Notes under the pieces: model-generated
Database searches by the model: none
What the model saw: the letters and a program-made list of their open reading frames with translations, nothing else
What the model was told of the DNA's origin: nothing
Part shown: in pieces, positions 15,940 to 38,116 of the stretch
Numbering within the stretch: the stretch's first letter is position 1
Layout of the letters: each line of letters begins with the position of its first letter
Position numbers and translations under genes: made by a program
Source of the DNA: Ceratodon purpureus
Taxonomy: Eukaryota > Streptophyta > Bryopsida > Pseudoditrichales > Ditrichaceae
Direction of reading: 5' to 3'
Length of the DNA stretch: 64,000 bases
NCBI GenBank assembly: GCA_014871385.1
Contig: CM026429.1
Span: forward strand, 5,517,892 to 5,581,891

Positions 15940-16069
15940 CCCATCTTCAACACTATACCAAAACACAACATTAATATTGCTCAAATTTAGAACAATGGCA
16001 CTACCGGTACACCTCTAATGAAGCTAGTGTTACAAGATTTTGTAATCTTTTCTACTAGAACATTCTTCT

Positions 16070-17865: not shown

Positions 17866-19035
17866 CTTCAAATTTATTCATTTTTTCTTAATTTAGAATT
17901 ATCTATAAACAAACCTGCTACCCTGTAACTATGATTCGTATTCATTTGAAGATACTCCCTTTTTGATACATGATTTAATCGTCCATTTTGATGTACACTC
18001 TTATAAATCAGTTGGATTCATGTACTCGATTCAATAATTATCAAACTTCCTTAGTATTTCAGTACCTTCCAAAACATGATAAAAACTAAAAAAATCAAAG
18101 TCGAGTTGCAATCATTTCATCATAACTGGTAGCTGCAATCGTTTAATATTTCATGTTGGTAGAGAAATTAGAAAATAACTTAGGCTGTTGTTAAAACATT
18201 GAAAAGCAGTTACCCAACTGGCTTATCGTTTTATGTAATTTGCACATGCCTGTTTCATAATGCCCGGAACCATTAAAAGTGCCACAAAATTTTATAAATG
18301 TTGAATTTAGCTCACCATTTCATACCGTTTGACCAAGTGAATTTGCCAATTTCAATAAGAGTTGGTTCTCTTTGACCAAACGCTACAGTAGCTGCCAATG
18401 TTCAGGAATTGATATCCCAATCAGAAATTGGTATCTCAAAGGAAATTACTTTTAGAAAGACTTCTCACGAACAAATTTTTGAATTTCTGAAATGTACTTT
18501 CAATGCCATATACATTAAATTGGTCACTTCTCATTATGTTGGCCACTCAAATAGTGTGATTTCAATTAAACTTCTCTCTTTATTTGAATAATGTGACGGG
18601 CAATATAAACAAGATTGGCCAATTTAATAAATATGGCAATTAAATCATAACTCTAGCAATGGCAAATGGACTGCAGTAGTCAAGACCCTTGCAAACCAAA
18701 ACAAGTGTTGACCTTTACTTCGGGAGGAAACTGTTACAATACCAAATTTCAACATTGAGTCAAGCTGGTGAACCAAACCAAACCAAGACAGTAAAATGTT
18801 TCCGATGGATATCATTCAAATTTTCAGTAGCTACAGTAAACAGCCAACAACATAATAAGTATGCAAATAATCAGCACCGAATTGACCCAATCTGGCATGA
18901 CATCGATCACGAAGGGAAAGTATGAATTAACATCTTAAATTCATCCTCAATGTGGTCTACTAACTCAGGTAGCGACGCTCTTGTGTCGATGCTGCGCATC
19001 AATCTCATAGCATCTTCAACTATTTAATACACGTT
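17866..19035. other. right part of duplication copy 1, no gene
   Basis: AT-rich sequence with one 60-codon ORF (18409-18591) conserved in copy 2. I see no recognisable product. Confidence 0.5.
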
Positions 19036-19370
19036 TGTTGTCTCTGTCCTCTTAGGCAGAGACTATGTGGAGACTTCCCCCATCAACTCAATCTGAAAGT
19101 CCAATGACCTATCCACAACCCTTTTCACATTTAGAAACATGATAGGGTATATTTTGTATCCATTTTCACACTTAGGGTTGTGGTTCCGATTGGTGGTGAC
19201 GAGGCAGTTTTCATGCAGTTTGATGAACAGTATTATGTGATGAACAGACTTCTCATCCATCTTCTCATCCCCTCCCCGTAAACTCCGCAAGGGTTTCGGT
19301 ATCCTGCACGGGTAGGGTTTCGGGTAGTTTTGGTGTGGTTCGGGGTCAGGTGTTCGTTTTTTGATTCTGT
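19036..19370 (+). repeat. truncated copy of the HDAC-gene 5' flank
   Basis: From TGTCTCTGTCCTCTTAGGCA (about 19036) the sequence matches 52740-52990, then jumps by deletion to match 53385-53460 (TAGGGTTTCGG, GTGTGGTTCGGGG). The source-like copy lies directly upstream of the class IV HDAC exons. This segment is joined on its left exactly to the end of duplication copy 1 and on its right to the putative SCC4 5' region. Confidence 0.8.
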
Positions 19371-19967
19371 AGCAGATGAGCATTTTGTTGCAATTGGTTA
19401 GACAGTGTAGTGTTTATCGGAACCATGCACGCAGAACAATAGTTTAGGGTTATGATGTTTGAGTTTTGGTTGTGAGTTTATTGAGGGCTTTTGATGAGTG
19501 TGCACATGCTGTTGAGAGATTTGGGTTTTTTTTCCTTTGCTGGTTGTGAAGCTTTGCTGCGTAATCGAGAAGGGATTCGCCGAACGACCTGACTGCGAAC
19601 AAGAACATGAAACCAACTGCAACTGAACTTCGGAGCAGATCAATCTGGGACATGAAGCGAATTGGTATCAGAACAAGCAAAATGAGTTCAAGTCCAATTG
19701 TCGACCTCAATTAGGGTTTCACTCTCACGATCCACCATCGCCATCGCCATGCCTGCCAACAGCTTCGCCGTGAGACGCACCGCGCTGGTCGGGGGAGCTC
19801 GGGACCGGTTCCGTGGCGATTCAGTCGAATCAACGACTGGTTTCGGTGATGGACGCGGAGGAAGTCAGGGGAGGAAGATGTAGGGTTAGGATGGGAGTTG
19901 CGAGGGTTACGAGCTTGAGCTGAGATTGAGCTGGAGGAGGAGCTGGAGGAGGGGGAGGAGTGTGGCG
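19371..19967 (+). promoter_or_regulatory. putative 5' flank/5' UTR of the SCC4-like exon
   Basis: GC content rises toward 19700-19960 and the plus strand becomes GA-rich just before an ATG, as in plant leaders. It contains the plant leader motif TTAGGGTTT at about 19710. The minus-strand ORFs here are low-complexity shadows (Ser/Pro runs). Confidence 0.4.
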
Positions 19968-20036
19968 ATGGAGTCGATAGCGGAAGGGCTGTGGCAGTTG
20001 GCGAGGCAACACGAGGTAGGCGGGTGTATCGCGCAG
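19968..20036 (+). pseudogene. putative first exon of SCC4/MAU2 (cohesin loader), orphaned
   Basis: ATG at 19968 opens 23 codons reading MESIAEGLWQLARQHE and then VGGCIAQ, ending at a CAG/GTAGGC donor in phase 0. This resembles the start of plant SCC4/MAU2 proteins, the TPR partner of the SCC2 cohesin loader (they begin MES-AEGLW-LA--HE as I recall). No downstream SCC4 exon is visible. Instead the Helentron-like element begins within about 0.5 kb. It is either a gene truncated by the rearrangement or a captured 5' fragment. The assignment rests on a short match. Confidence 0.5.
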
Positions 20037-20499
20037 GTAGGCGGGTTTCAGCCCCGAAAGAGTGATACTTTCCTTCCTTCCGGCAGAAGTTGGACAAGAG
20101 TGAGCATTAAGATCCTGTTCATTAACATCAGTACAAGCTATTAACACAGATTTTAGAGGCCGGACGTGAGTGATGTTTGGTTGTTAACTCGTTGCTGAAG
20201 TAGCATTTTTTCCTGAGACACAGGCTCAGCGTGGATTTCATTTTAACATTCTCGTGTGAAACTTGAGAACTGTGTTTCAGATAAGTTATTTAGCGTGGAA
20301 GCTTACTTGATCACTAGTTTAGATTACTTTGAATGTTGCTGAAAGAATTGTGTGAATGAGGTTGTTGAGACTTGAAACATGAATGGAAGTGAATTGTTCG
20401 CGATTTGAAAATAGGGTCGGAGGCTCGGTGAAAATGAGGTGTGTGGATAAAGCCTAAGTGAAGGGAATGGCAAGAGGCGGAGGGAGAGGTCTTGTGGTC
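20037..20499. other. presumed intron/transition into the Helentron
   Basis: Sequence following the SCC4-like donor, with no gene. The left end of the transposon lies somewhere between here and 21016. I cannot identify a definite 5' terminus. Confidence 0.3.
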
Positions 20500-21016
20500 A
20501 TCTCTTATAAGGTGAGCGCATCATTAAATTGATTGACCCCCCTCACATGAGGCCCCCCCCCCCCATTACCACAGCTGAAGCCCCTATTACCACAATTGAA
20601 GCCCTCATCACCATACTGAAGCCCATTTCTCGAGAAGCCTATTACCAGTGAGGCCCGTACATCTAGGTAAAGCCTATCTTTATCACCATTCCTTATCACC
20701 ATCTGACATTCCACGTCAAGCTTGGCACCTTCTAGATTGAAAATAATTAAGAACTACTACATTAAAATTAGATTATAAATAATTAAAAATTATTAAATTA
20801 GAAATAAATGAGTTTGGTGATAATGTTGTCGTTAAATTAAAATTAGGTTAAAAGTAGGTAAAGAAGCGGTGCATTGAATGAAGTTTGGTAGGATTTTTTT
20901 CAATATAATGAACTAAACATTCCGTCATTCTCATTCTCTTTGATTTGCGTCTTGTCTTCTCATTTTCTTCTGATTTGCATCTGTATTCATACTTTTGTGT
21001 GTTTTTTTTCTCAACC

Positions 21017-22441
21017 ATGGCACTTCCTGCTAGCAAGTCTAGAGCAAGGTTGGTGGTGTCTGTAGATGATCTTACTGAGGGTACTAGAGACGTAGCATTT
21101 GAGGGGAAGATTTTGTCTAGGTATGGAAATTGGGATCCAACCAAGGATGTCAAACATCCCTATCTTCATTGTGATTTACTTGATAGAGAAGGGTACACTA
21201 CCATTACGATGAGTTTGGTGCGCCCTCAGATTGAACAGCATGAAGGGAAGTTGAATGTTGGATCATTCATTCGTATAGAGAACTTCGGTGTAGCTTCCAA
21301 GTCTGAGAAGTCGTTTGAGAAGGGTGATATGCCTGTTGTGTTGAAGGTCCAGTCTACCACATCTGTCACCACCATATCTAATGGTGGTGAAAATGAGTTC
21401 ATTCCTAAGTTTTATCATAGTGATAGCATTGCTGAGTTTCGTAAACGCTCCCATGAACAGTGGCCAACAACAACTATTGCTGTCTGTGTCATTGGTATCA
21501 GAGGCACATATGGTCGTTATCACCAGCTAGTGATAGCTGATGGATTTACCGAAAGTGATAACGACATTGTGGCACTTGGTCCCCAATTCCAGAAAGAATA
21601 CAACCAGATCGTTGAAGCTTTCAATAGTGGTCAATGTGTTATGGTTTTGTTTAAAAACCTTAGTGTTTCTCAATCTGGAGAGCGTTACCTTCGCATAGAA
21701 GCAAGCACAATTAAATCATCTGTTGTTGACAACTTCGTCCAAATGCAATTGCAGTCTATCCACAACAGATTGTGTTCTACAACTCCAGCTTCAACAAGAG
21801 AGGTATTTTATTTTGACAATCATTTTCAATCGATTTACTTTTAAGATTTATATTAAGTTTTAGTAACTGTATTGTATTATTTTTTGCAGATTTATGGGAC
21901 ATTAGCAATTGCTAGTCCAACAGTAGCTGCTTACAAATACGTGTGCAATAAGTGTAATCTCTCCAACCTCATTGTTGTTGAAGAAGGTTTCTATTGCAAC
22001 GTATGTCACAGCCCTCAACCTGTTAGAAAGCAAGCATATCTTCGTGGAAGGATTTCTACAGCTACTCAAGCAGTCACTATGTACCTTGAAGGCCAGTGGC
22101 TACAAACTCTTGTAAGAATGACAGAAGAACAATTTTTGAAGCTTTCAAGAGGAGAACAGATCAAGATGCTTACTGCTTTCCGGATCAAAGGTACATTTTG
22201 GTTAACTCCTATGGCTATTTTGAATGGATTTGAAGAAGATATGGATACTAGCAACTTCAGTTCTTTGGATATGCCTACTTCTAGTGCCGGAAGACCTCTG
22301 AGTTGCACACAAGATTCAGTTCCAGGGATCGATATGGAAGGAGATGGAGGGACTCCATGCACTCAAAGGTACAAAAGGAAACTTGACAATGACAATGTAG
22401 GAGCATCTAGCAATAAGGTTAAAAAGACTTTGAAGCTGTAG
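21017..22441 (+). CDS. RPA70-like single-stranded DNA-binding protein of the transposon
   Basis: Exon 1 is 21017-21802 (262 codons; start chosen because AACCATGG is a good context and follows a pyrimidine-rich leader) and exon 2 is 21890-22441. The 87-bp intron has GTATTT and TTTTTTGCAG ends, phase 0. The product is 445 aa. OB-fold-like regions occupy the N-terminal half (VSVDDLTEGTRDVAFEGKI, then GKLNVGSFIRIENFGVAS). Exon 2 encodes a CxxC...CxxC zinc ribbon at C281, C284, C298 and C301, as in DNA-binding domain C of RPA70. It is shorter than host RPA70 (about 600-800 aa) and lacks the N-terminal protein-interaction domain, as seen in Helitron-encoded RPA proteins. The probable role is protecting single-stranded transposon DNA during rolling-circle transposition. 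The frame is intact. Confidence 0.8.
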
Positions 22442-22652
22442 AACTTCAAACATGCTTCAATTTGTGAATGCAGTTTGGTTTTTTTAATGCAAATATATAT
22501 TTGACTTGAAGGGGCATGCCTCCACATTTGCAAAGATCATTTTACAATTTTCTATACGCAGTCTTCCATCTACATTCTTTCATCGCAGTCTTCCATCTAC
22601 ATTCTTTTATCCCAGCCTTCCATCCACAACTTTCTATCCGCAGTCTTTCATC

Positions 22653-22950
22653 CGCTTAAACAGTCTTGCTTAAACAGTTTTATTTAAACAGTCTTGCTTA
22701 AACAGTTTTACTTAAACAGTCTTGCTTAAACAAAAATACACTTATTCATTCAAACAGTTTTGCTTAAACAGTCTTGCTTAAACAGTTTTACTTAAACAGT
22801 CTTGCTTAAACAGTTTTACTTAAACAGTCTTGCTTAAACAAAGATACACCTATTCATTCAAACAATTTTGCTTAAACAGTCTTGCTTAAACATTGTTTAC
22901 ACTTACTCATTCAAATAGAATTGCTTAAACAAAGATACATTTATTTTTTG
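22653..22950. repeat. 14-bp minisatellite (TTAAACAG-type units)
   Basis: Alternating units ACAGTCTTGCTTAA and ACAGTTTTACTTAA are repeated many times, degenerating toward 22950. A CAGTCTTCCATCTACATTC-type repeat leads in from 22558. The array lies between the RPA-like and OTU genes. The same unit and a similar lead-in recur at 55780-55975. Confidence 0.9.
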
Positions 22951-23213
22951 AAACAATTTTGCTTCAACGAAGATTCATCTTTTCAAAAGATTTTGCTTGA
23001 AACAAAATGTGATTTTATATGATTTTATAAAAAAAATAACTTAAATGGTGATTTTTTTCTTTAAAAAAATGAAAATTATTGAGATATGCACAACGAACAG
23101 ATATTACAAATTACATTATTGCTAATATTTTAAGTAATTGAAAAATCAAAATGAAATTAGGTAATATTCCTTCAACTGCATTTGCTTAAATATTGTAGGT
23201 ATAATTACAGAAC

Positions 23214-23294
<81 letters not shown>

Positions 23295-23357
23295 AAATAA
23301 GAAATTTTGTACATTACTTGATTTAGTATAAAAAGTAAATAGTGAAAACATATTACA
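22951..23357. repeat. AT-rich spacer with a 71-bp (AT)n microsatellite
   Basis: A pure AT dinucleotide run spans 23219-23289. The rest of the spacer is AT-rich DNA with no ORF, leading to the OTU start codon at 23358. Confidence 0.9.
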
Positions 23358-24194
23358 ATGGCAATCATAGATAGGAAATTAGCAAATTGTAATTTACAAC
23401 GTAATACAGCGTATAGGTATGTTGTTGGTGATTGTTTATTTGATTCAATAACATATCTTTTACATTATGATATTTCTTCAGAAATTCTTAGAATAAATAC
23501 AATGCAACATCTTGCATTTTGTATATCGTTAAATACTCCAAAAGCTCTACAAACACTTGATTTTGAATTGAATGAAGATTGGTTGCATGATTTACATACA
23601 GGGATATTTAATGCTCAACAATACATCCAAAGAATGTCTTTAAGTGCAAGACAAGGAGGACTTTGGGGAGATTTTACTGCAATTAAATGGATATCTGATT
23701 ATTTTCAAAGACCTATTTATGTTTGGTCTACTGAAAGTGGAAAAATAATAGACAAAGAGGGATGTGAGTTTCACTTGGAACCATTTCATATAGCTTTTGG
23801 TTCAAGACATTTTGAACCTATAGAAAAATTAAATCAAAGCATGCCAATAGTTTTGCCTATAGAAAACACGGAAACAGAAATAATAAATTTAGAATCAAAT
23901 AGTTTATATAAAGAATTAGATTCACAGAATATATGGAAATCAAGTACTTGTGAAAAAGAACAATTTGTACAATCATACACTCAGTCAAAGATGATGAATA
24001 TTGAGGATTTTAATTTAATCAATCAAAGTAATGTGGACATTGAAAAAATACATACCAATATTGAACCTAAAACAATAATAAATAGTATCCAAAGTAATTC
24101 ATTGAATGTTTATGAAAAAACGGATATTGATGATTGTGGTATAGTAAATGTCATTAATGAAAAAATTGAAAATAATAAAAAAATGATGATCTGA
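23358..24194 (+). CDS. OTU-type cysteine protease domain of the Helentron
   Basis: A 278-codon frame. The catalytic cysteine is in the motif GDCLFDSI (C26), a conserved middle motif follows (GGLWGDFTAIKW around residues 100-111), then RPIYVW, and the catalytic histidine is in SRHFEPI (H151). This is the OTU arrangement. OTU enzymes cleave ubiquitin linkages; in Helentrons the domain is normally fused in one ORF to Rep-helicase. Here the frame ends at a TGA just after a run of A residues (24176-24183). In another frame the coding sequence continues (next entry), so the stop is best explained by a one-base slip in the A run. Residues 155-278 are low-complexity, Asn/Ile/Glu-rich linker. Confidence 0.8.
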   Translation: MAIIDRKLANCNLQRNTAYRYVVGDCLFDSITYLLHYDISSEILRINTMQHLAFCISLNTPKALQTLDFELNEDWLHDLHTGIFNAQQYIQRMSLSARQGGLWGDFTAIKWISDYFQRPIYVWSTESGKIIDKEGCEFHLEPFHIAFGSRHFEPIEKLNQSMPIVLPIENTETEIINLESNSLYKELDSQNIWKSSTCEKEQFVQSYTQSKMMNIEDFNLINQSNVDIEKIHTNIEPKTIINSIQSNSLNVYEKTDIDDCGIVNVINEKIENNKKMMI

Positions 24195-24538
24195 ACAAAA
24201 CTAACATCAATAAAAAATATAACAAATTAACAAACAACACTCAAAATAGTGCAGCAAATACTAAGAAAAGGGAAAAAAGAATGTTTTGGAGTTTAGATCT
24301 TAATAATACTTTAAAAGGTTTTATGTTGGAATCGGCAACAAATAAAGAAATTGCTACAAGATTTTTGCTTGAAAGGAAAGAATTAAAATTGTCCATTGAC
24401 CAAGTGATGCGTCATATTAGAAAGATTAAAACGGCATCATAAAAGATAAAGTTAATACAACTAATATAAATGAATACGATTCAATTAAAAAGGATGTAAA
24501 TGAATGTGTTTTTAATTTAAAAGGTAAACCAAAGATGT
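24195..24538 (+). pseudogene. frameshifted linker with helix-turn-helix-like segment
   Basis: In the +2 frame coding resumes up to a TAA at 24440-24442. From 24281 it contains a segment beginning MFWSLDLNNTLKGFMLES, then NKEIATRFLLERKEL and VMRHIRKIK, which resembles a Myb/SANT-like or other DNA-binding helix-turn-helix. A further shifted frame covers about 24444-24590 before the Rep frame begins. Together these imply at least three indels between OTU and Rep in an originally continuous polyprotein. Confidence 0.5.
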
Positions 24539-27118
24539 ATGATGAAATCCAAAATGAATCTACTTCAATTGAAGAAGATAAAAAAATTTATATTCAATGA
24601 AATTAAAAATAAAAAACGGTCTTATACTAAGTGGAAAGAAATGGATGAATCATTGAGAATAATATTGAATGAACAAGAAAATAATACATTCCTTGCTAAA
24701 GCAACTTTATTTGTTGATAAAAATCCAAAACTACAAAAAACTCCACTACAAATAGTAAAACGAATGAAACTTATTTCATCTAAAGTAAAAAATAATTTTC
24801 CATTAGATAAAACTTTATCCCAAAAAAATTTAACCAAAGATAAGTTGGCTAAAGTCATAAAAAAAAATAAGGATCCTTTTATTATATTTCAAAACAAAAT
24901 AAAAGATATTCCAATCTATCCATGTACATGTTGTGAAAGGTTAAATTTTATTTCAAAAACTATAGTGGCATGTGAAAAAAATTTGAATAAGATGAATAAT
25001 GTATTAAAATATAATTTACAATTGATAACAAAAGAAAAAATATACGTATGTAATTTTTGCTTAAAATCAATTAACAATTCTATGGTTCCTAAATATTGTG
25101 TTCCAAACAACCTTTCTAGAAATTCCATTATTGAATCTGTCAAAAAACTTACAACATTGGAAGAAAGATTAATATCTCCACGTATTGCATTTGCGCAAAT
25201 CCATAAATTGTACAATTATGGCCAATACAAATTACATGGAAGTATTATAAATGTTCCAGCAAACATTGATCAAACTCAATCTTTACTTCCTCGATTACCT
25301 GAAGATGGTACAACAATCGGAATATTACTAAAACGTCGTCTAGAATATCGTTCTCCCTATATATCTGGAAATATTCGACCAAATTTAACAATGTTAGCTT
25401 TAAAAGATTTACTTGAAACACCTCTTTATAAAGAATGCAATGTTTATATTCGTCCACAATGGAATAGTTTGTTTGCATTACACATGCAATCAAGTTTAAA
25501 TCTAGATACAACAAATAATACAATTGAGGATATGACAAATGAAGACAACTTTGAAGAAGATATAGAAGGACCACCAAGTGAAACTTTAGTACATAATTTT
25601 TTAGATTCAGAAAAAATTTATGATTTCTATAATATGATTTCTGTTGCTCCAAGCCAAGAATATTCTCCTATTGGAATTTTTAAAGACAAACACAGTGAAG
25701 AATTGAATTATCCGACACTATTTTACGGCCATCCACGAGAAGATAAGATTTCCAATAACTTTTCCTATCATCAAATAGCAAGTTGGGAAATTCTACATAA
25801 AGATCATGATTTTGTTACAAATATACAAAATATATTTTTCAAAGCAATTAAAATTTGTATAGAAAAAATTAAAAATTCTAGTTGGATTCGAATTCAAAAA
25901 GGAAAGTTATCCGGACGTACACTAACAGCTGGTCAAGTTTCTCAAGAACCAAATCTTGATAAAATTTTAGAATCCCATATAGGTTTTCGTGATTTAGAAA
26001 AACTTCGAACATCACCTCATTATATTGAGGGATTAAGAAAAAACTTATTTGCTATGATTAGACAATTAGGACCACCAACATTTTTCATCACATTAACAAG
26101 TGCAGAGCGATTGTGGGAGCCGTTGATTGAAGCTTTGTATAAACTGAATAGAGAAAACCTTAAACTACCAGAATTTAATAATTTAGATTCCACTCATATT
26201 GTAGAGTTAATAAGATCCGATCCGGTGACTTGTGCATTATATTATAATCACCGTACAAAAGCTTTTCGAGAATTGCTTCAAAAAGAGTCTTGTATTTTAG
26301 GTGAAGTTGTTGATTTTTTCTTTGTCACGGAATTTCAACACCGTGGAAGTGAGCATGAACATGCACTTATTTGGATAAAAAATGCACCAAAGTTTCGAGT
26401 AAATTCTAAAGAAGAAATTGAAAATTTTGTTGAAAAATATATAAGTACAGACAAAAGTTTATTGCCTTCAATCTTACAAGAGGCACAAACACATAAACAT
26501 TCACGCACATGTAGAAAAAAAGGTCAATCAATATGTAGATTCCACTATCCACTTCCTCCAATGAAGCAAACAACAATTTTAGAGCCTTTAGAGAACACGG
26601 ATGCTAAAACATTATTGTATTTACAAAACAAAGCTAAAGATATTTTTTTATACTTAAAACAATTAGAAACTGGAATAGACATGAAATTTGAAGATTTTCG
26701 TAAAAAATTCCAAATGGATGAAGAAACATATATTTTAATTTTACGCAGTCAATTAAAAAGGCCTCAAGTATTTTTGAAGCGAACACTAAATAATATACGC
26801 ACAAATGCATTTAACAAAAACATTGCACATACATGGTTTGCAAATACTGATATTCAATTTATTCTTGATCCATATGCTGCAGCTACATATTGTACATCAT
26901 ATATGACAAAGGTAGATAAATCAATAACAACAGAGTTAAAATCAATCTTACAAAAATGTATTAATGATAAAAGTGATGCTAACTTGAGAATTTTAAAACT
27001 TGGCAATGCTTTTTTAAATGCTCAGCAAATGTCAGCTCAATTAGCAATTTATCTTGTTTTGTCTATTCCCTTGTATCATTGTTCCCCTTCTTTTGCATTT
27101 ATAAATACTTCGCCATAA
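24539..27118 (+). CDS. Helitron Rep (HUH endonuclease) region
   Basis: The open frame has 859 codons. The N-terminal part has the Cys pairs typical of Helitron zinc fingers (PCTCCERLNF about residue 128, VCNFCLK about residue 170). The HUH nuclease signature is EFQHRGSEHEHALIW with H606 and H608. The catalytic tyrosine motif is YCTSYMTK with Y784 and Y788, preceded by LDPYAAAT, close to the two-tyrosine motif of Helentron Reps. Rep would nick the transposon ends and join strands. The frame stops at TAA 27116-27118 within a motif that normally continues (SFAFINTSP). The same frame then runs on to 27308, hits a second TAA, and continues directly into the helicase ORF, so Rep and helicase were one protein. 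Confidence 0.9.
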   Translation: MMKSKMNLLQLKKIKKFIFNEIKNKKRSYTKWKEMDESLRIILNEQENNTFLAKATLFVDKNPKLQKTPLQIVKRMKLISSKVKNNFPLDKTLSQKNLTKDKLAKVIKKNKDPFIIFQNKIKDIPIYPCTCCERLNFISKTIVACEKNLNKMNNVLKYNLQLITKEKIYVCNFCLKSINNSMVPKYCVPNNLSRNSIIESVKKLTTLEERLISPRIAFAQIHKLYNYGQYKLHGSIINVPANIDQTQSLLPRLPEDGTTIGILLKRRLEYRSPYISGNIRPNLTMLALKDLLETPLYKECNVYIRPQWNSLFALHMQSSLNLDTTNNTIEDMTNEDNFEEDIEGPPSETLVHNFLDSEKIYDFYNMISVAPSQEYSPIGIFKDKHSEELNYPTLFYGHPREDKISNNFSYHQIASWEILHKDHDFVTNIQNIFFKAIKICIEKIKNSSWIRIQKGKLSGRTLTAGQVSQEPNLDKILESHIGFRDLEKLRTSPHYIEGLRKNLFAMIRQLGPPTFFITLTSAERLWEPLIEALYKLNRENLKLPEFNNLDSTHIVELIRSDPVTCALYYNHRTKAFRELLQKESCILGEVVDFFFVTEFQHRGSEHEHALIWIKNAPKFRVNSKEEIENFVEKYISTDKSLLPSILQEAQTHKHSRTCRKKGQSICRFHYPLPPMKQTTILEPLENTDAKTLLYLQNKAKDIFLYLKQLETGIDMKFEDFRKKFQMDEETYILILRSQLKRPQVFLKRTLNNIRTNAFNKNIAHTWFANTDIQFILDPYAAATYCTSYMTKVDKSITTELKSILQKCINDKSDANLRILKLGNAFLNAQQMSAQLAIYLVLSIPLYHCSPSFAFINTSP

Positions 27119-27310
27119 CAAGAACGTGAATTTGTTTTAAAACCACAACAACAACTTCTTAAATTGGACAAAGATTGCACAGATGTGATGTGTAAATCTA
27201 TAGTAGATAAGTACTTAGATAGGCCAAATGGCTTAAAAGATATATGTTTAGCAGAATTTGTAGCAAATTACAATCATAATAACAAAAAATTGTCTATTCG
27301 AAAAAAATAA

Positions 27311-29932
27311 AAAATTATTAGATTTGTTCATTACAATAAATTCAAAGATTTGGAAAATTGGTCACGAGAACAATTATTGTTATATATCCCATTTTTTGAA
27401 GCTGAAGAATCTCTAAAAAAAGAAAAACCAACTTGGAAAGAAGCTTATGATGAAGAAATTGAAAAGATCTTTTTGATGCAAAATTTTTTCAATTATCAAA
27501 TTACAAAAGAATCATCAACAGATTGTGGTGATGATGACGAGTGGATCAACTTACAAGAAATAGCATCTAATTTAGCAACTTCAAAATATTTTAGCTTGTG
27601 GAATGATTCATCTATTGAAAATACCCAATCAATACCGATTAGTATGAATGTGGAAAAATATGATCTAACTACAGATATTTATATAAAACCATATTCTAAT
27701 TATTCATATAAAAGTACATTACAAGATAATAATTGTATCTTAGAATTAATGAAAGAAGAAGAATATTTTAAAATACTTCGATTATTAAATGAAGAACAAA
27801 GAGCAATTTATGATGATGTAATGTATAGAAAAAGAGTTCATTTTGATGAACCAATATATTTATTTCTCACAGGAGGAGCGGGAACTCGAAAGACATTTAC
27901 TCTTCAAGCTATTGTACAAGGATTGTTGCGTATGTATCACAAAGATTTAAAATCAGATCCTTTAAAAACAAAAGCATTGTTAATGGCATTTATAGGCAAG
28001 GCAGCATTTAATATTGGCGGAACTACCATACATTCACATTTACACATTCCCATTAATCAATCACTTTCAAATCTTGGAAAATTATCGTCGGAAACACTTA
28101 CCAAATTAAATGAACAATATGAACAATTGAAATTTATGGTTATTGATGAAATATCACTAGTAGGTGCTAGAATGTTAGATGCCGTGGATCAAAGATTGCG
28201 TTCAATCAAACATGTACAAAACAAATTTTTTGGAGGTTTGGATGTAATAGTCACTGGAGATTTTTATCAAGCACCACCAGTACGAGATAGATGGATATTT
28301 CAAAAACTTGATCTTGGACTTAATGCTATAGCACCAAATTTTTGGCATGAATACATTAAATGTTATGAATTAAATACTGTTATGCGCCAAAATGATGTGA
28401 TGTTTATCAACATATTAAATAGATTTAGGAAGGCATTGCATACTATAGAAGACATAGACACAATAAATAATTTGTGTTTAAAACAACCTCCAACAAATTC
28501 ACTAATTCCTTATTTATTTTATACCAATAAAGATATGATTGCGCACAATAATAAAGTGTTTCTTAATGCTGAAGGGCAAACATATCATTTTGAAGCAACA
28601 GATATTAGGCATCCTTCTTTACCATCGTCTTATCAAATTCCAAATAATCCAAATTTGACAGCAGGACTTCATACAACCATCAAAATCAAACAAAATATGC
28701 TTGTAGAACTTTGCAATAATTATGCAATTTTTGATAGACTTGTTAATGGAGCAGATGGTTTATTTAAAGCAACAACATCATTTTCTAATAAATCTTACAT
28801 TTGGATACATTTTTTTAATATAAAAGTAGGCAATGCTACAAGACTTTCTAACTCTCATTTGTATACAGATATAAATATAGATTCTACTTGGACTCCTATA
28901 GAACCAATTGTTAAAGAAATTAGAATTGGTGAAAATCAAACACATCTCATAACTCGTAGACAATTTCCTATTCAACTAGCTGCTGCAAGAACAATTCATC
29001 GATCTCAAGGTTTGTCATTGGATGATGTTGCTTTTAATCCATTTGGTGTGAATAAACATGGATTGGCTTATACAACTTTATCACGCATACGAACTAAAGA
29101 AAAATTGTATCTACTAGCTCCGTTATCAAAATCCAACTTCCAAGTAGATGTACTAGTACGTGAAGAAATGGAAAGGTTAACAACACAAGCAAAATGGCAT
29201 TTACTTGTACCAATGTTAAAACCATTACGTAATTCTCATATAATCATTCAAAGTATCAATATAAATTCTTTACGAAAACATCATTTGGATTATAAAAATG
29301 ACCATAACATGCAAGCTTCACATATTTTGTGTTTTCAAGAAACTAAGATAAATGAAGTAAATGAAATAAGTGAATTAATTGATACATCTAGATATAAATT
29401 TATCCACATTAAAGATAAATATGGCTTGCTCATGATGTATGAATATCAAATGCAATGTGCATCATTTCAAACAAAGACTTGTAATGGGTCGGAGTTTATA
29501 GCAGCTTCTTTTAATCTGAGAACCCATAACGCAATATATGTTATCTCATTATATCGTAGTCATTCAACCAAAATTACAAACTTTTTGGAAATTTTAGAAA
29601 TTTTAGTAAATGAAGCACCAATAGAATGTCCAATCATTATTTTAGGTGATTTTAATGTAGATTTATCTAATGACAGTATTCAACATTATGAAATTGAAAT
29701 GATTTTACATAGCATGAACAAAAATAATCTTAAACAAAAAATTTTGACATCAACTATCCAAAAAAATTCTTTAATAGATCATATATGGTCAAACATACCT
29801 AGAACTGATACAAAATATGGAGTTACAGATGCCTATTGGCCTGATTATCACAAACCTATTTTTTGTGCTTTTAAATTGCCAAGTTCATTACCAAAATATA
29901 TTAGACAAATCCAATCATTTCGTTTCACATAA
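27311..29932 (+). CDS. PIF1-like helicase fused to AP-endonuclease domain (Helentron)
   Basis: The frame is open from just after the TAA at 27308-27310 to 29932. Numbering from codon 27350: Walker A GGAGTRKT (G175-T182), Walker B VIDEIS (D266, E267), GDFYQAPPV, a late IHRSQGLSLDD motif and AYTTLSRI, the PIF1/RecD-like SF1B helicase set. The C-terminal about 230 residues form an exonuclease-endonuclease-phosphatase/AP endonuclease domain: NINSLR, FQETK, ILGDFNVD (D767, N769), LIDHIWSN and YHKPIF. The helicase would unwind the donor strand and the endonuclease may assist target or donor cleavage. An oddity is arginine 180 (CGA at 27887-27889) where the P-loop normally has glycine (GTGKT), likely damaging to ATP binding. 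Confidence 0.9.
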   Translation, partial: KIIRFVHYNKFKDLENWSREQLLLYIPFFEAEESLKKEKPTWKEAYDEEIEKIFLMQNFFNYQITKESSTDCGDDDEWINLQEIASNLATSKYFSLWNDSSIENTQSIPISMNVEKYDLTTDIYIKPYSNYSYKSTLQDNNCILELMKEEEYFKILRLLNEEQRAIYDDVMYRKRVHFDEPIYLFLTGGAGTRKTFTLQAIVQGLLRMYHKDLKSDPLKTKALLMAFIGKAAFNIGGTTIHSHLHIPINQSLSNLGKLSSETLTKLNEQYEQLKFMVIDEISLVGARMLDAVDQRLRSIKHVQNKFFGGLDVIVTGDFYQAPPVRDRWIFQKLDLGLNAIAPNFWHEYIKCYELNTVMRQNDVMFINILNRFRKALHTIEDIDTINNLCLKQPPTNSLIPYLFYTNKDMIAHNNKVFLNAEGQTYHFEATDIRHPSLPSSYQIPNNPNLTAGLHTTIKIKQNMLVELCNNYAIFDRLVNGADGLFKATTSFSNKSYIWIHFFNIKVGNATRLSNSHLYTDINIDSTWTPIEPIVKEIRIGENQTHLITRRQFPIQLAAARTIHRSQGLSLDDVAFNPFGVNKHGLAYTTLSRIRTKEKLYLLAPLSKSNFQVDVLVREEMERLTTQAKWHLLVPMLKPLRNSHIIIQSININSLRKHHLDYKNDHNMQASHILCFQETKINEVNEISELIDTSRYKFIHIKDKYGLLMMYEYQMQCASFQTKTCNGSEFIAASFNLRTHNAIYVISLYRSHSTKITNFLEILEILVNEAPIECPIIILGDFNVDLSNDSIQHYEIEMILHSMNKNNLKQKILTSTIQKNSLIDHIWSNIPRTDTKYGVTDAYWPDYHKPIFCAFKLPSSLPKYIRQIQSFRFT

Positions 29933-30647
29933 CTTCGATAATATAAATTTACTAAATTGTTCTTTCATGTATCTACTAAATTTCTTATGCACAGTTTTTA
30001 ATGTATCTACTACAGAAATCTAATTTTCTTCTTAAAAAAGACAATTGTGATACATTCATTCTCCAAAACAACTTATAAGTATCACCTAATATGTCCAAAA
30101 TTTGTTGCTCTCATTCAACAAGTAAGCCATTGTTCTCCAAGATAAAAGCCAAATACTCCAAAATAGGACAACCAATTCTAAACAATAGTTGCTCTTGTAC
30201 TCAATAATTTTTGTAAATAAATTTATTACTTTTATAAATTTGAATAAAATTTATTTATGAATTCAAATAAAATATTCTTATAAATTAAAAAAGAATATTC
30301 TAATAAATTAAAGAAGAATATTCTTGTAAATTAAAGCAACTTTTTTTTATGAATTAAATAATAAGAGTAGTTATTTATAAATTAAAGTATCTACAATATT
30401 ATTGTAAGTAAAGTAAAATGTTTTTATAAATTAAAGAATTTTTTTTCTAAATTAATTAAAACATCTTTATATATAAAAGTAAAATATCTTGATAAATCAA
30501 AGTAAAATTTCTTTATACGTTAAGATTAAACGTTTTAATGCTTTAAAGTCATTTTTTTAGAATTTAAAGTAAACTATTATTCTAAAGTAAAAAAAACTTA
30601 ATGTGAACCTGAAAAATGAATAGATTATATTACAATTATTAAAACTT
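29933..30647. repeat. AT-rich spacer with degenerate TATAAATTAAAG repeats
   Basis: From about 30230 to 30560 the words TATAAATTAAA and GAATATTCT recur at irregular intervals, as a decayed tandem repeat. There is no gene. It lies between the endonuclease domain and the last ORF of the element. Confidence 0.6.
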
Positions 30648-31145
30648 ATGAAAATTATGTTTTATATCCTTCACAAACAAGACCAAAAGATTACAAGTCT
30701 GGGTAAATTAAATGACAAATTGGCTGATTGGACAACACACGTTTTTATACATGATGAACAATGTTATGAGTCTTTGCAACAATTATGTGATGCATATGAC
30801 CACAAAAAAATATTTTATAATAATAATTTAAAAGACAAATATTTAATAGATCCATCCTTGCTTCAAAAGCCTATGGAAATTTCATGGCTACGACCATGGA
30901 AAGGATTAAACTCCAATGATTACATAACATTAAGCAATGCTTGCTTAAAATCTCCACAAACCTATTTTTTTGAAGGATACGATATCAAAAATGGTATATT
31001 TAAAACTCATACAATTAATTATTTATCAAATAAAATGAAAATAACTAATGATGTCAATAATGTATACCGCTGGTTTGAATTAAAAGACAATCCTTCTACT
31101 CTTGATTCAGATTTTGGAACATGTGATACATCAAAATTTCAATGA
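30648..31145 (+). CDS. uncharacterised 165-aa ORF at the 3' side of the Helentron
   Basis: ATG at 30648 opens 165 codons with the same AT-rich, Lys/Asn-biased codon use as the transposon proteins. It has no signal peptide, membrane segment or motif known to me. There is a compact central stretch with several aromatics (SWLRPWKGLNSNDYITLSNA, then YFFEGYDI), suggesting a folded domain. Position, strand and composition place it inside the mobile element. It could be an accessory protein, a captured host exon or the remnant of another element. I do not assign a function. Confidence 0.55.
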   Translation: MKIMFYILHKQDQKITSLGKLNDKLADWTTHVFIHDEQCYESLQQLCDAYDHKKIFYNNNLKDKYLIDPSLLQKPMEISWLRPWKGLNSNDYITLSNACLKSPQTYFFEGYDIKNGIFKTHTINYLSNKMKITNDVNNVYRWFELKDNPSTLDSDFGTCDTSKFQ

Positions 31146-31295
31146 TGCCAACAAGTTTCCCAAACTAATCTTCAAGACAAGCCCTTAGATAAGGCAATTG
31201 GAATACATACAACAATGAATTTTAATCTAAAGAAAACTTTTTGGATGATTTACAAAGGTGAACTCATCACCTCAATCTTTGATAAGCCGCAGGGC

Positions 31296-33240
31296 TCAAC
31301 TGTTAAGGAAAGCTCGGAATGAGACGTATACACAGTTTGAACTCGAAAAGCATCTGTGAAGAGTTCTTGCCTGTTTCTTCAGAGGGGATCCTATACAGTC
31401 GGGAGGATTAGCAGGCTTGATAACAGCTGTGGATACCAGCAAGTCTACACCATTAGGAGGTCCCTCTAAATAAAAGAATGTCTTTTGAGGTTGTCCATCC
31501 AAGTGAAACTTGCCTTCGAGCAGAACCCATTCTTTACTTGAAGCCTTCACCCTAGCAGCTTGTCAACATTTCATCAGAGACCAAATCAGTTTATCGCTCA
31601 CAAACAAGTGACTATGAAGAGCAGGAATGATCTGCCAATACTCCCTCAACTTCATCAACAAATAGTACTTTCAAATGCAGACTTGGAGAAGGAACAAGTA
31701 CACAAATCGTCTTGCTAGTATTCAAATAAAGTAGAAAGTGGGACTGAAGCCAAATCCAGAAATAAGAGCTTTAAAAAGAAGCATACCTTCCAACAGACAA
31801 GTAACGTGTTTTGGAACCTCCATATTCAAGCCGAACTGTAGCCAACACATAAGCTCCTTCATGAGGCATTCCAGCAGTGCGGACCATTGCAATCACAAGA
31901 TATGTTTCATTAGGCTGCACTAGACCAGTGATTTCTTGCTCGATCCCCTGCCATCCCTCTGTCCTGTCCAAAGCCAAGGCAAAAGGTTTTCCCCTAGGTC
32001 CCATTATGCCTTTCCATCCGTGTAAACCTGAATGATTTACTTTGCAGCAGATTCCTGACCACCCCTGAACTCCAGTGTTGAAAGTCGGATTGAGAAGCAC
32101 ATTCCCCTCAACGTCTACTTCCTTAGGTTCCTCCACTAAGAAATCCTGCCATTTGAGTGTGAAAAGCAGGGTATTTTCAAACCATGATGGTCGAATGTAA
32201 GTGAAAATTCGTTAATCATTTGTATAAAATAGTAAAGAAATGACAAAGCATACGACACGATATCTTACAGGTTCAGGCTTTGATGGTGCAATAGAGAAAC
32301 AGCTAGCAAGTATATCTATCCCAATTGGAGGTCCTTCCAAGTAAACCAAAGCTTTGACAGGCGCCATGCTTACTTCCATCTTGCCCTTGAGAAACGCCCA
32401 TTCTCGTTTCGAGACAGGGCCACTGCATAGCGAGAGAGAGAAAATGACAAATCTTGACATAGTGGTACCAGGTGATAAAGTATCAATGAAGGAAAGAGGC
32501 AGCACATCGTGCGAATGAGAAACACACCTAGCCTTGACCAAAAACGAAGGGCAAGGACCCGTTTTAAAACCTACACCGTCCCCGCCCTCCGCTACAACCA
32601 TCCTTGAGAGCACAAGTTTTCTTAAGAACCAAACTTTCTTAAAAATCGTTTCGGTTTGATTGAACCTCTTTAGAACATTGATGTAAATCTCAAAGTACAA
32701 GTTAGGGAAGCGCATGCGAACCTGGCAAGAGTGGTGTAAGTGACCTTGCCCCCTGCACTTTCAAGCTTTAAAGTAGCCCGCACATCAGCTAGCTCAACAT
32801 CACCAGAAATGGAAACGCAGGCTTCTACTTTGTACTCCACACCTGCCTAGACGAAAGGTGAGATGCAAGATAAGTGACCAAACCCAGCCAACCCTACTTA
32901 TCAATTCTGATAACCTAGCTAGTCCATGTTTCATAAGGTATCAGAAATGAGAAAGCACAACAGCCGACTTTCATAAGTATGTACTTCACAAGCTAGATTT
33001 CAGTGCTTGGTGTAAGATTCTACCTTCAATCGGCTCGTAATATCTTGCGCAATACCCTGCCACAACTATGTCCGATTGTGCGCAATGCAATAAAACTGAT
33101 GCCCACTTGGAGGAGCTCCGCATTGAGGCAGCCTATCGCTAATTGACATCGAGCAAAGAGGCTGCCAGCCATGGTCTGAGCCCCATATGAATGAAGGATT
33201 GACAATCAAATTCTTCGACCCAGCCATACCAGCTGGTGTC
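31296..33240 (-). pseudogene. GH10 xylanase-like gene fragment: tandem carbohydrate-binding modules only
   Basis: Minus-strand exons encode two CBM4_9/CBM22-like modules typical of plant GH10 xylanases. Module 1: about 33240-33024 (NLIVNPSFIWGS, then WQGIAQDITS), 32842-32722 (GVEYKVEACVSISG, DVRATLKLE) and 32422-32269 (EWAFLKGKMEV, YLEGPPIGIDILA). Module 2: 32145-31787 (NVLLNPTFNTGVQGWSG, GWQGIEQEITG) and 31551 to about 31420 (EWVLLEGKFHL, FFYLEGPPNGVDLL). Splice sites and phases fit. In module 1 a TAG interrupts the frame just before LWQGIAQDI. The catalytic GH10 barrel is absent. In an intact enzyme these modules bind xylan in the cell wall. It is a decayed partial copy lying between the Helentron and duplication copy 2. 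Confidence 0.85.
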
Positions 33241-33367
33241 TGCCAATAAATGCCGTCCCCTTCTGTACTTGTTCTCCAATGATAAAATCAACTTGCACTA
33301 GACAGAGATTCCGAAATTCTGCAGGCTTGGACAGAAATTGAGCAAGTTCATTCACAATGCAAGAGCT

Positions 33368-33404
33368 GCTATAGCATAACAGGGCTCAACTGTTATGCTA
33401 TAGC
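33368..33404. repeat. perfect 15-bp inverted repeat at the duplication junction
   Basis: GCTATAGCATAACAG, a 7-nt loop GGCTCAA, then CTGTTATGCTATAGC. The last three bases are the first bases of duplication copy 2 (which starts at 33402). The 16-bp word CAGGGCTCAACTGTTA inside it (33380-33395) also occurs at 31290-31305. Confidence 0.95.
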
Positions 33405-33745
33405 ACCGACATCCTGGTTGCGAATGATTCATGCTTGCAAAACCAGACTCCCTGATGCATTGATAATTAATTCTTTTTAATTCTACAAGAAACCCACTGA
33501 TGACAATGGTATCCCAGAAGGTGAATGCCTATCTCTACTTCGCTAAGACCACAGTCGTAAATCCATATCCTAGGGTCTGGATAATTCAGCCCTTCACCCA
33601 GCATGGTAGAGGACCTCTACATTATCTCTAAACGAGGGTGAGGGTCAGCGCGAGCTGCGTTTGAATCATCATCCGTGACCTACACTAACATCCACCGCTG
33701 CATACCAGGATTAGACCTGACATGCATCACCCCGCTTCAATAGAT

Positions 33746-35692
33746 TTACGCCAGGATGGCCGAGATAACACCGGCACCCACGGTTCTGCCACCCTCCCGG
33801 ATAGCGAACCTCATCTTCTCCTCGCACGCCACTTCATTCACCAACTCCACAGTGAGCTTCACCCTGTCGCCGGGCACCACCATGTTAACCTCGTCGCCAG
33901 AGTCTGTCTCAATGTTCAGGACTCCACCCGTGCAGTCGGTCGTACGCATGTAAAACTGGGGCTTGTAACCCTTGAAGAAGGGTGTGTGGCGTCCTCCCTC
34001 CTCCTTCTTCAAGACGTACACTGACGCCTCAAACTTCGTGTGTCCCTTGATGGTTCCTGGCTTCGCCAACACCATGCCCCTCTGGATGTCAATCTTCTGG
34101 ATACCTCGCAGAAGCACACCCACATTGTCACCCGCCAGTGCCTCATCCAGCAACTTCTGGAACATCTCCAGTCCAGTCACGGTTGTGGTCCTCGTCTCGC
34201 GAAGCCCGACCAGCTCCACCACATCACCCAACTTCACGATACCACGCTCTACACGTCCCGTCGCCACAGTTCCACGTCCAGTGATCGAGAACACGTCCTC
34301 GATGGCCATCAGGAAGGGCAACTCGGTCATACGCTGCGGGATGGGGATGTACTGATCCACCTCGTCCATCAGCTGGAAAATCTTGTCCACCCACTTGTTC
34401 TCGCCCCTGGCAGTCTTCGGGTTCTCCATCAGCGCCTCCAGCGCCAGCAGAGCAGACCCGGACACAATTGGGATATCATCGCCCGGGAACTCGTATGAGT
34501 TCAGCAACTCACGCACCTCCATATCCACGAGGTCCAGCAGCTCCTCGTCATCGACCTGCATCAAGATTGAGCCGAACCTCACCATTAATTCACCATAATG
34601 CAAACACAATTATAACCTAGAAAAAAACTGTACGCATTGAGAATCCTCTTCCAAATCATTATCCACAAACCCCACCGTAAAAAGCTACCTAGAAATTGAT
34701 GGATAACCTCAACTACTCCTCACCATACATTCAGATCCGACAAACCATTCTAAAATATCCATTATCTTCCAAACCTTTCGTAAACCCCTCAGCTATGTGA
34801 ATTGGCCGTATCATACTTATATCCATTACCAAGTGCCAATTCCTACTAAAAATAATTCAAGGCCGCGAATTCATCAGAAGAGCCAATGCAAACCGGATAA
34901 TTAATAGGCCATTCTAAGATAGGTGTTCCATAAACATCTTAGCCACAGAATTTGGTGAAGTCGCGGCCATATCCACAACCAAACTCTAATTTAAACTTCA
35001 GACAGACCGTTCCCTCAAATTCATTACAAAACCAAAGAAAACTAAGAAATTCACAAGACCACAAAAATCCCAATTACCTGGTCCTCCTTGTTCATGAACA
35101 CCACCATGTTCGGCACGCCGACTTGCTTCGCCAGAAGGATGTGCTCCTTAGTCTGGGGCATGGGGCCATCGGCACCAGACACGACCAGAATAGCACCATC
35201 CATCTGGGCAGCACCAGTGATCATATTCTTCACGTAATCAGCGTGCCCAGGGCAATCCACATGGGCGTAATGCCGGGAAGCCGTCTCATACTCCACGGTC
35301 GCGGTATTAATCGTAATACCACGAGCACGCTCCTCCGGCGCGGCGTCAATCTCATCATACCGCTTCGCGGCGCTACCTCCCTCAGCGGCGAGCGCCATGG
35401 TCAGGGCCGCAGTAAGCGTGGTCTTCCCATGGTCGACGTGACCAATGGTGCCAATGTTCACATGCGGCTTCTTCCGGTCGAACTTCTCCCGAGCTGCGCG
35501 CACGACGAGCGGGGCCGCGCGGGCGGCGTCGCGCCCCGCGGACGCCACGCCCTGGAGGTGCTGCACGCCGTTGCCGAAGAACGCCGACGAAGTGACGACC
35601 GCGACGCGGAGCGTGGGCTTGGTGGTGGTGCTCCCCGACACGGAGGGCGGCGAGAGCGCGGCCCGGCAGCTCACATCCGCGACGCACGCCAT
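33746..35692 (-). CDS. tufA: chloroplast elongation factor Tu precursor, copy 2 (two exons)
   Basis: Exon 1 is 35692-35078 and exon 2 is 34555-33746, structure identical to copy 1, product 474 aa. Over exons and intron I see a single difference: G at 35592 versus A at 12720, giving Thr instead of Ile at residue 34, in the predicted transit peptide. GTP-binding motifs, switch regions and the C-terminus are unchanged. The 5' flank is also duplicated, so both genes plausibly keep the same promoter. The mature proteins would be identical, so any difference between the paralogues would be in dosage or import efficiency. Confidence 0.95.
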
Positions 35693-36352
35693 TGCGAAGA
35701 CGAGCGCTCGAATCCCCGAGGCGGAGCTGGCGAACCCTAGCGGGGGTGGATTGCCTTGAGGAGACGAGAGGGGGCGAATGGAGGTCTGGGAGACGGGGGA
35801 GAGAGTGAAGAGGGGATTGGGGTGGGGAAAAGGGGGAGACGGTGAGGTTCTAGTCTGTGGCGATGGAGTTCGCTCTGTGGGCGTTGCGCTGGGCGCCCTT
35901 CGATCTGGATAAGGCGATGGGGGTCTCGGAGCTCTTATCGGTTGTGTGGGTTTTATGGTTGGGGGGTGAGGGGGAGGGGTTTTGGGAGGGGAGGATCTGG
36001 GGGGAATCTTTGGTGCGATTCGGTTTTTTGGGTTGAGGGGGAGATGTTGTGTTTGGTGTGTGAGATTGAGAGGTGTTGTGTTGGTGCTACGTGTATTCTA
36101 TGTTTTGGTTGAGGTTTTTGGTGGTAGGATGGTTTTATGCGGTGCGCTGTCGTTGTTGATGTTTTTGACGTTTTATTATTGGGATGTGTCAGGTCTTTTT
36201 GTCTGTGGTAGTTATGTAGATTTAAGGGAAATCTTTATTGGGATTCAGATATTTGGGTCGTGGGGTGATATTGTGTTTGGTGTGTGAAATCAAGAAGTAC
36301 TGCATGATTGCCTAGTATATTCTATGTTCTGGTTGTCTGTTTTGGCGGTTGG
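35693..36352 (-). promoter_or_regulatory. GC/G-rich 5' flank of EF-Tu copy 2
   Basis: Identical or nearly so to 12821-13480, with the same G-runs on the plus strand. Likely leader and promoter of the minus-strand gene, shared by both copies. Confidence 0.5.
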
Positions 36353-37813
36353 GTGGTTTGATTGAGTAGGTTGTTGCTCGAGTATATTCTAAATTTTAGT
36401 TGTCAGTTTTGGTGGTTGGATGGTTTAATCCAATTGGTTGAAACTTTTGACCTTTTACAACTTGGAGGTGGCACAATTCTTATGAATGACGTTCATCCAC
36501 ATATAAAAAAAAACCTTTATTTGAATTTAGAAGGAAATGTTATTTTTGATGCATGAATTTCAGAAGTACTTGGTCATTGACATGTGTATTCTATATTTTG
36601 GTTGCCAATTTTATAGATTAAATAATTTTATCAACTGCAATGTCACTATTTTAACTTTTTATGTTTGGCTGTTTGGAATTGGCGGATTTATATAAATGGC
36701 AGTCATCCAATTTTTGAGAAATAGTATAAAATTCTATGGTTTGCTTGGCTATATGCATATGTGAAGTTTACAAAAAATAAATGATAAGTGAATGTTTTGT
36801 GCATCATTTTATGTTGAAGTAATTCACTAAAAAACCATTGTAGGATTAGTCAAAGAATAAATTAGATGAATAGTATAATTCTAAAAAGAATGGTTTTTAA
36901 GTGTTTTAAATTTTGTTTCTTATTCTTAAGGCTATCCAATAAACTTGAAATTGAAAAATATATATATTTCTACACCTTTGGTGCAAATAACTCACCTCAT
37001 TAGATTAGGTTAAATTGTAATTATATCCAATTATTAACCTCAATGTAAAATTATAGAAGTGGGACAATAGAATCATCAATTATTTCCACATTTGTGTACC
37101 ATTTTAACAGTGTAGTAGACCATTTTCACATTAGACTTAGGAGTGTAAAAAATGGAGACTATTGATGGTTCAAATGCAATTAGAGTGTGAGATAAGTTGA
37201 ACGTTGTATTATTTCATATATATGTGTTACAAAATTAATAAATCTACAACTAGTACAACTATTTGAAAGCAAGGTTAACCTCAAAATGTGTAAATTCACA
37301 CCAAAGTTGAAAACATAGCATACAACATAAGATTAAATGATAATAGAATGAATAATGTCATGTAGAAATATGTTAAATATTTTTCAATTCAAAAAGTGCA
37401 GAACAATTTAGGAGTTATTCTTCAAGCTTGGTTCAAAGTGGTTGTTGCAATCAACATTAAATGATGTATTTGTTGTACTTGGAATGATTTCATGTCATTA
37501 AAAAGTTTTAGGTGAAAAATGAAGTTATAAACATTTCTTTCTGTTTTCATGAATTATTAACTACAAATTTCAAACTTTCTACCAAGGAAAATTTTAATTA
37601 CATGGTATCAATATATTTACCTTCTCCAAAGTTAAAAATTAATGAACACAATCTGTAAACCTTTACATAATTTATATTGACCTTTAGTTGTCACTATTTT
37701 TTATTCCTTAAGAAAGTACATTCATTTATGGGGAAATGTAACCTGTGGTGTAAATGTGCGAAATATTTTTTCTATTTTCACCCTCATTTATTTTCCTTCT
37801 TACTTCTAAAATT
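36353..37813. other. AT-rich intergenic DNA within duplication copy 2
   Basis: Counterpart of 13481-14941. No gene recognised. Scattered substitutions relative to copy 1 begin near 37218. Confidence 0.6.
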
Positions 37814-37825
37814 AAATGGCATATA

Positions 37826-38104: not shown

Positions 38105-38116
38105 AAATGGCATATA

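Follow-up and report, generated by a model that had tools for sequence, protein, structure and literature searches.

The stretch of DNA analysed here (the window: 64,000 nucleotides of the moss Ceratodon purpureus, at C9:5517892-5581891 of a 362.5-Mb genome) contains a large transposon in which an RPA-like gene is combined with OTU, Rep, helicase and endonuclease modules, and it raises the question of whether this combination marks an intermediate or mosaic lineage, as an initial annotation of the sequence had proposed, or an element of a type already described. We conclude that it is very probably a 3'-truncated and decayed copy of a Helentron, i.e. of an endonuclease-bearing, non-canonical Helitron. 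The element is a multi-copy rolling-circle transposon, one window copy of which spans 19034-31278, with all genes on the forward strand in the order RPA-like gene (with one predicted intron), OTU-Rep-helicase-endonuclease polyprotein and second OTU-bearing gene, the last present in the window as a remnant. The OTU, Rep, helicase and endonuclease modules have Pfam matches where they had been annotated, consecutively after the RPA-like gene (Table 1). The annotated extent of 20500-31289 does enclose these modules, but it starts about 1.5 kb to the right of the true 5' end and runs slightly past the right limit at 31278.

A genome search for full-length copies, which the annotation had recommended for fixing both ends, recovered nine sister copies in which same-strand 5' and 3' ends flank a Rep place, with spans of 11.8-25.5 kb (C4:6.43, C4:7.40, C8:2.49, C2:22.89, C6:8.19, C6:22.55, C6:43.31, C6:93.48 and C6:95.69 Mb). 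Comparison of the left ends of sister copies places the 5' terminus at 19034/19035, and 29 of the 40 scored 5' ends (the best 40 of 54 candidates; at the 3' side, the best 40 of 94 candidates were scored) begin at query base 5, which is position 19034. The 5' core TTGTCTCTG is exact in 10 of the 13 5' ends compared and one base off in three, while the 3' core CACCGTTCTTGTT is exact in nine of the ten 3' ends compared and one base off in one. Subterminal inverted repeats are formed by 5' TCTCTGTCCTC pairing with 3' GAGGACAGAG, and hairpins are present at both ends, the 5' inverted repeat being also one hairpin arm. The 3' stem-loop ACGGTtccACCGT, a 5-bp hairpin located 7 bases from the end, occurs in the sister copies and in a second element in the window. 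The ends read TTTRTTGTCTC.. and ..CCGTTCTTGTT, not the 5'-TC and 3'-CTRR of canonical Helitrons, and a run of T precedes the 5' core in the ends compared. Because the domain E-values range from 5e-6 to 8e-32 and nine sister copies have both ends paired, the module set is not a chance match. The longest both-ended copy, of 25.5 kb, includes a stretch (L056:1-706, in the copy at C2:22.91 Mb) that is GC-rich and repetitive by eye.

In the window copy, frameshifts and two in-frame stops interrupt the polyprotein frame; its OTU-Rep part is frame-shifted, and Rep and helicase share one frame with both stops lying between them. In two sister copies on C4 a single open frame of 2195 amino acids runs from OTU through endonuclease, and the window copy is therefore a decayed form of this polyprotein. 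The ATP-binding loop of the window helicase is also unlike that of two sister copies. The fused endonuclease (PF03372, 36.4 bits, cut-off 24.5) occupies residues 650-828 in the helicase frame of the window copy. The annotated Rep motif GSEHEHALIW was found in the window Rep, and Rep motif 2 reads RGSEHEH in the family to which the window copy belongs (family A) and RGSEHDH in a second family (family B). The polyprotein is AT-rich (GC 0.28-0.32). Nonsynonymous and synonymous divergences (dN and dS) are 0.0017 and 0.0061 between the two open C4 polyproteins and 0.0032 and 0.0123 between one of these and the C8 copy, values consistent with selection during recent spread.

Helentrons are described as having a fused endonuclease plus additional OTU and RPA open reading frames (Thomas et al. 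2014, PMC4067079). As the three are already given together for Helentrons in that account, the gene set of the moss element is not new and does not make it an intermediate or mosaic lineage. The other part of the annotated name, Helentron-like, agrees with the fused endonuclease, the subterminal inverted repeats, the hairpins, the S in the Rep motif and the tree position described below. In the same source the diagnostic position of Rep motif 2 is S in Helentrons and L in Helitrons, and subterminal inverted repeats with hairpins are given for Helentrons and their derivatives; asymmetric inverted repeats with hairpins at both termini are reported for Helitron2, the termini of Helentrons being similar (PMC5148889).

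The annotation had also suggested placement on a Rep-helicase tree. In such a tree, Helraiser and the canonical moss Helitron L064 are separated from families A and B and a third Rep/helicase group (group C) with support of 100/100, and the element accordingly falls outside the pair of Helraiser and L064, although the tree has five rows, none of them an animal Helentron, and carries warnings of long branches and unlike composition. Families A and B and group C all have DUF6570, which L064 lacks. If the element were instead a canonical plant Helitron that had separately gained OTU and endonuclease, the presence of canonical Helitrons in this genome and the RPA genes known from plant Helitrons (PMC4067079, PMC4683698) would fit well. 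Yet L064 matches Helraiser at 863 bits and the element at only 54 (window) to 63 (C4 copy), best in the helicase; the ends and the S of the Rep motif are not those of such an element; and the RPA-like gene, which lies within 15 kb in 17 of the 21 PF14214 places of this element's type, is found within that distance in none of the 69 others among the 90 in total (relatives of this particular RPA were sought, such that a different RPA would escape). We therefore regard that origin as highly improbable. A scan of viral contigs for further comparison proteins gave 41 stretches and no relatives, and a second scan gave, among the matches listed, eight distant helicases that were not used.

Group C is represented by a 2454-amino-acid open frame (L065:2-7363; C4:22041700-22050000) with DUF6570 and, at its C-terminus, a Ulp1-like Peptidase_C48 domain (23.5 bits against a cut-off of 20.7). 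It was missed by the search with the window Rep at E 1e-5.

The likeness to the Helentrons described from the mite Metaseiulus, Culex and Drosophila (PMC4067079) covers the fused Rep-helicase-endonuclease, the OTU and probable RPA frames, the subterminal inverted repeats, the 3' stem-loop, an inverted repeat partly nested in the 5' subterminal repeat, a possibly T-rich target, non-autonomous derivatives and apparent gene capture. The moss element differs from those descriptions in its host, in having OTU fused N-terminally within one frame of 2195 amino acids, in an inverted repeat of 10-11 bp, in the intron of its RPA-like gene (the RPA of the mite Helentron is described without one) and in the addition of a second OTU gene with about 600 amino acids that match no family. 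Helitron2 of Chlamydomonas shares the asymmetric inverted repeats and the hairpins at both ends, but Helitron2 proper is given as a single Rep/helicase frame without the endonuclease that the moss element has (PMC4067079, PMC5148889). Likewise, proto-Helentron-Pi of Phytophthora infestans, the published intermediate, shares a Helentron-type Rep/helicase and gene capture but is described as having no endonuclease, a Helitron-like structure and an A|T target (PMC4067079). Canonical Helitrons such as Helraiser (PDB 7lcc) share the HUH Rep and Pif1-like helicase and differ in their TC/CTRR ends, their GLPH motif and, in the animal form, the lack of an endonuclease.

The RPA-like gene belongs to the element. 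The annotation had allowed that other copies might show it to lie outside the element boundaries, but judged from the sister copies it lies inside. In three of these, the gene (95.6-97.2% DNA identity) and the polyprotein occur as a single piece, and an RPA-like match is located 1.6-5.1 kb upstream on the same strand in 16 of 26 clustered Rep places (window included), with two more at 10-13 kb. All three family-B places (C4:0.19, C6:33.8 and C6:98.0 Mb) have an RPA-like gene 2.8 kb upstream, and family B is 56-57% identical to family A in Rep and 40-44% in the RPA-like protein with the same gene order. At a related Rep (61%) at C3:17.22 Mb, no RPA-like gene was found within 25 kb. If the gene were not a stable part of the element but had recently been captured from the host and carried along by one family, this might explain why it follows directly after the cargo region, why 19 of the 37 RPA-like clusters have no such Rep less than 25 kb away and why its GC content at third codon positions is 0.36-0.385 compared with 0.17-0.22 in the polyprotein (21017-22441 versus L031:3778-9999), a contrast that is alike in both families. 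We consider such a capture improbable, however, given that both families carry the gene in the same order, split before the ribbon exon and at the low identity noted above, that codon positions 1, 2 and 3 differ by 0.47, 0.32 and 0.62 between families and that the gene stays while the cargo changes between copies.

The product encoded at 21017-22441 is probably an RPA, to judge from domain matches and alignment. The annotated RPA module is present as a gene inside the element, whereas its identity as RPA is only probable, DUF223 reaching 15.8 bits in the window copy and so remaining below the cut-off of 24.6. DUF223 was matched by all seven relatives of the protein at E up to 0.5 (best 4.1e-5), and one RPA-like place scored 24.8 bits in one search, its frame scoring 24.3 in another. 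The RPA1 frame of the host itself barely passes the cut-off (24.7 bits) and carries PF08646. The CxxC...CxxC ribbon is whole in three of the four rows compared, and its last cysteine is lost in one family-B row.

Several results weigh against the reading of this element as a Helentron with an RPA gene of its own. Neither single-sequence nor profile searches of the PDB yielded a match for the RPA-like protein (apart from one unrelated match, E 1.4); its hhalign comparison with host RPA1 gave E 0.26 and 0.077, with a reversed control at 0.24, and no significant match; and two single-sequence AlphaFold models were unusable (mean pLDDT 31 and 40). Between the window and a C4 copy, dN (0.0049) and dS (0.0058) of RPA exon 1 give no sign of constraint, with few changes to compare, and 8 of the 26 Rep places are without such an RPA gene within 25 kb upstream. 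At the P/L position of the published motif the Rep motif of the element has E, the OTU and endonuclease of family B score below their Pfam cut-offs (22.3 bits against 23.3, and 20.0 against 24.5), and the inverted repeat is 10 bp in nine of ten 3' ends and 11 bp in one, with 12-15 bp reported for mite Helentron families (PMC4067079). Helentrons insert into TT or T-rich sites without duplicating them; here the 3' flanks are mixed, which makes the target rule tentative, and the small size and the warnings of the Rep-helicase tree belong here as well.

Sister copies of family A have a further gene to the right of the polyprotein with an OTU-like start, although its match to PF02338 (18.6 bits) is below the cut-off of 23.3. 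In one C4 copy this second gene continues, after a repeat-rich gap that is by eye an intron, as a 602-residue frame. Beyond the OTU part no confident Pfam family was found (best other E 0.05), and none of the second-gene frames of the C8 and C2 copies (428, 173 and 348 amino acids) matched a Pfam family with an E of 1 or less. For one family-B copy, no such frame of at least 90 amino acids was listed in the 6.5 kb to the right of the polyprotein, as read by eye.

The window copy breaks off at 31278, and the 3' terminus and most of the second gene are gone. Position 31278 was considered as a true 3' terminus and rejected, since the block in which it falls continues into more element sequence in sister copies. 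Self-comparison shows that the left flank (10528-19034) is repeated with gaps at 33399-42015, at 99.8% over the first 4.4 kb and about 97.5% thereafter. This second flank copy holds an empty site at 42010/42011 (ACACGT/TTGTTTAG, the slash marking the site), with the sequence ACACGTTTGTTTAG at the place that the 5' end of the element occupies in the first; the site sits in a T-rich stretch, and the window copy's own right flank is lost. The segment at 31275-33381 overlaps the end of the element by four bases (ATCT), and the 17 bases before 33399 start with 14 bases that are also present at 31292-31305. Replicative template switching would account for the truncation joint, the ATCT overlap, the 14-base repeat and the element-free flank copy. 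The window copy was thus probably shortened by switching from the element to a gene fragment found about 121 kb away and then to the element-free flank copy, the order being inferred. The segmental duplication itself is recent; it extends up to the element and contains a frame that by eye is EF-Tu-like. Each copy of the duplicated segment also contains another repeat (16070-17856 and 39233-41026; 86-89%), of which a third copy lies at 60785-63764, near the right edge of the window.

Near the 5' end, the window copy has sequence in common with the copies at C6:93.48 and 95.70 Mb to about 19735 and with that at C6:43.32 Mb to about 19234. Between this region and the common zone of ~80-bp repeats, the cargo differs from copy to copy. 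The C6:93.48 and 95.70 Mb copies carry a 1016-bp piece that is 99% identical over its full length to C13:3783964-3784977, and on such matches we infer that places at C1:13.744, C4:19.420 and C13:3.784 Mb are the host sources of cargo; the element seems to have captured pieces of host genes.

Helentrons have been reported mostly from opisthokonts, and plant hits were few and short, with contamination considered possible (PMC4067079). An arthropod or fungal contaminant, or horizontal arrival, would be in keeping with that distribution and with the low GC of the polyprotein, and we think it unlikely that either applies. The contigs that hold the window copy and the nine both-ended copies measure 17.6-110.5 Mb (a 39-kb contig carries one additional Rep place), an empty site is present, and the cargo is 93-99% identical to other places of the same genome, all of which makes contamination very unlikely; as to horizontal arrival, the divergence of the families speaks to age and not to origin. 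For this genome, the doubt raised in the 2014 survey (PMC4067079) is answered by the presence of multiple copies, with both ends, in contigs the size of chromosomes. Contig C6, with 110.5 of 362.5 Mb (about 30% of bases), has 11 of the 26 Rep places, 17 of the 40 scored 5' ends and 29 of the 40 scored 3' ends, an excess that is suggestive only, because the searches scored just the best candidates. We take C6 to be possibly a sex chromosome, on the assumption that C. purpureus has very large sex chromosomes, one of them near 110 Mb.

Taken together, it seems reasonably probable that Helentrons are established, long resident and recently active in this land plant, in two families (~56% identical in Rep) that keep the RPA-like gene and the polyprotein, one of them with a second OTU gene, and that these elements take up host genes and are concentrated on C6, which may be a sex chromosome. 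What is added here to the known gene set is an occurrence in large contigs of a land plant, a predicted intron in the RPA-like gene and the second OTU gene. No earlier report of a plant or moss Helentron was found in the literature searched, which does not show that none exists. With canonical Helitrons and a third Rep/helicase group alongside, this is a good genome for timing when RPA, OTU and endonuclease joined this branch. An extra RPA paralogue has been described in the moss Physcomitrella, with contamination considered (PMC4683698); a Helentron RPA is a possible alternative.

By analogy with known Helitrons and Helentrons, transposition would most likely start with Rep nicking one strand at the 5' end, after which the Pif1-type helicase would peel off the nicked strand and the RPA-like protein would coat it. 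The 3' hairpin would then halt the strand, which would be inserted at a T-rich target where the endonuclease perhaps makes the nick. Joined ends, as expected of a circular intermediate, are reported for a Fusarium Helitron (PMC5148889). Candidate roles of the OTU domain are processing of the polyprotein and action on host ubiquitin. Reading past the template, or switching off it, could pick up host DNA.

Table 1. Coordinates of features in the window (slash, element boundary)
Feature	Position	Strand	Basis
5' terminus, T/TTGTTGTCTCTGTCCTCTTAGGCAGAGAC; 5' subterminal inverted repeat doubling as first hairpin arm	19034..19075	+	common start in sister copies
5' region common to several copies before cargo diverges	19076..19735	+	copy comparison
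Cargo piece 1, 96% to C1:13744123-13744433	19730..20046		query started at 19730, so left limit arbitrary
Cargo piece 2, 93% to C4:19420391-19420781	20052..20450		query ended at 20450, so right limit arbitrary
Single unit of ~80-bp repeat, tandem in several sister copies	20510..20600	+	copy comparison
RPA-like gene, exon 1	21017..21802	+	DUF223 in relatives; present in sister copies
Predicted GT..AG intron	21803..21889	+	splice sites by eye; family B gene split at same place
RPA-like gene, exon 2, with CxxC..CxxC zinc ribbon	21890..22441	+	alignment
Spacer from RPA-like gene to polyprotein, with tandem repeats and a (TA)n microsatellite	22557..23289		repeat reading
OTU cysteine-protease domain (polyprotein N-terminus in sister copies)	23346..24194	+	PF02338, 27.5 bits, cut-off 23.3
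OTU-Rep linker, frame-shifted piece	24179..24442	+	frame comparison
Rep domain, HUH motif, two tyrosines by eye, with DUF6570	24521..27118	+	PF14214, 80.3 bits; PF20209, 50.2 bits
Pif1-like helicase with C-terminal exonuclease/endonuclease/phosphatase domain	27311..29932	+	PF05970, 111 bits; PF03372, 36.4 bits
Internal remnant of second gene (second OTU and ~600 amino acids without family match), open in a sister copy	30624..31145	+	sister-copy comparison
138-bp block common to copies, in which the window copy ends at 31278	31141..31278	+	copy comparison
98% copy of C9:5426429-5428522, ~121 kb to the left, CBM_4_9 gene piece	31275..33381		sequence match
Second, gapped copy of left flank 10528-19034, holding the empty site	33399..42015		self-comparison
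Second element, both termini, without Rep match	52735..57670	+	92% similarity of 5' end to that of the first element; internal repeats; 97.5% similarity of final 40 bases to C8 copy

Elsewhere in the window, 44424-48714 contains TIR and NB-ARC frames followed by a frame that is leucine-rich by eye, i.e. a resistance-type gene.

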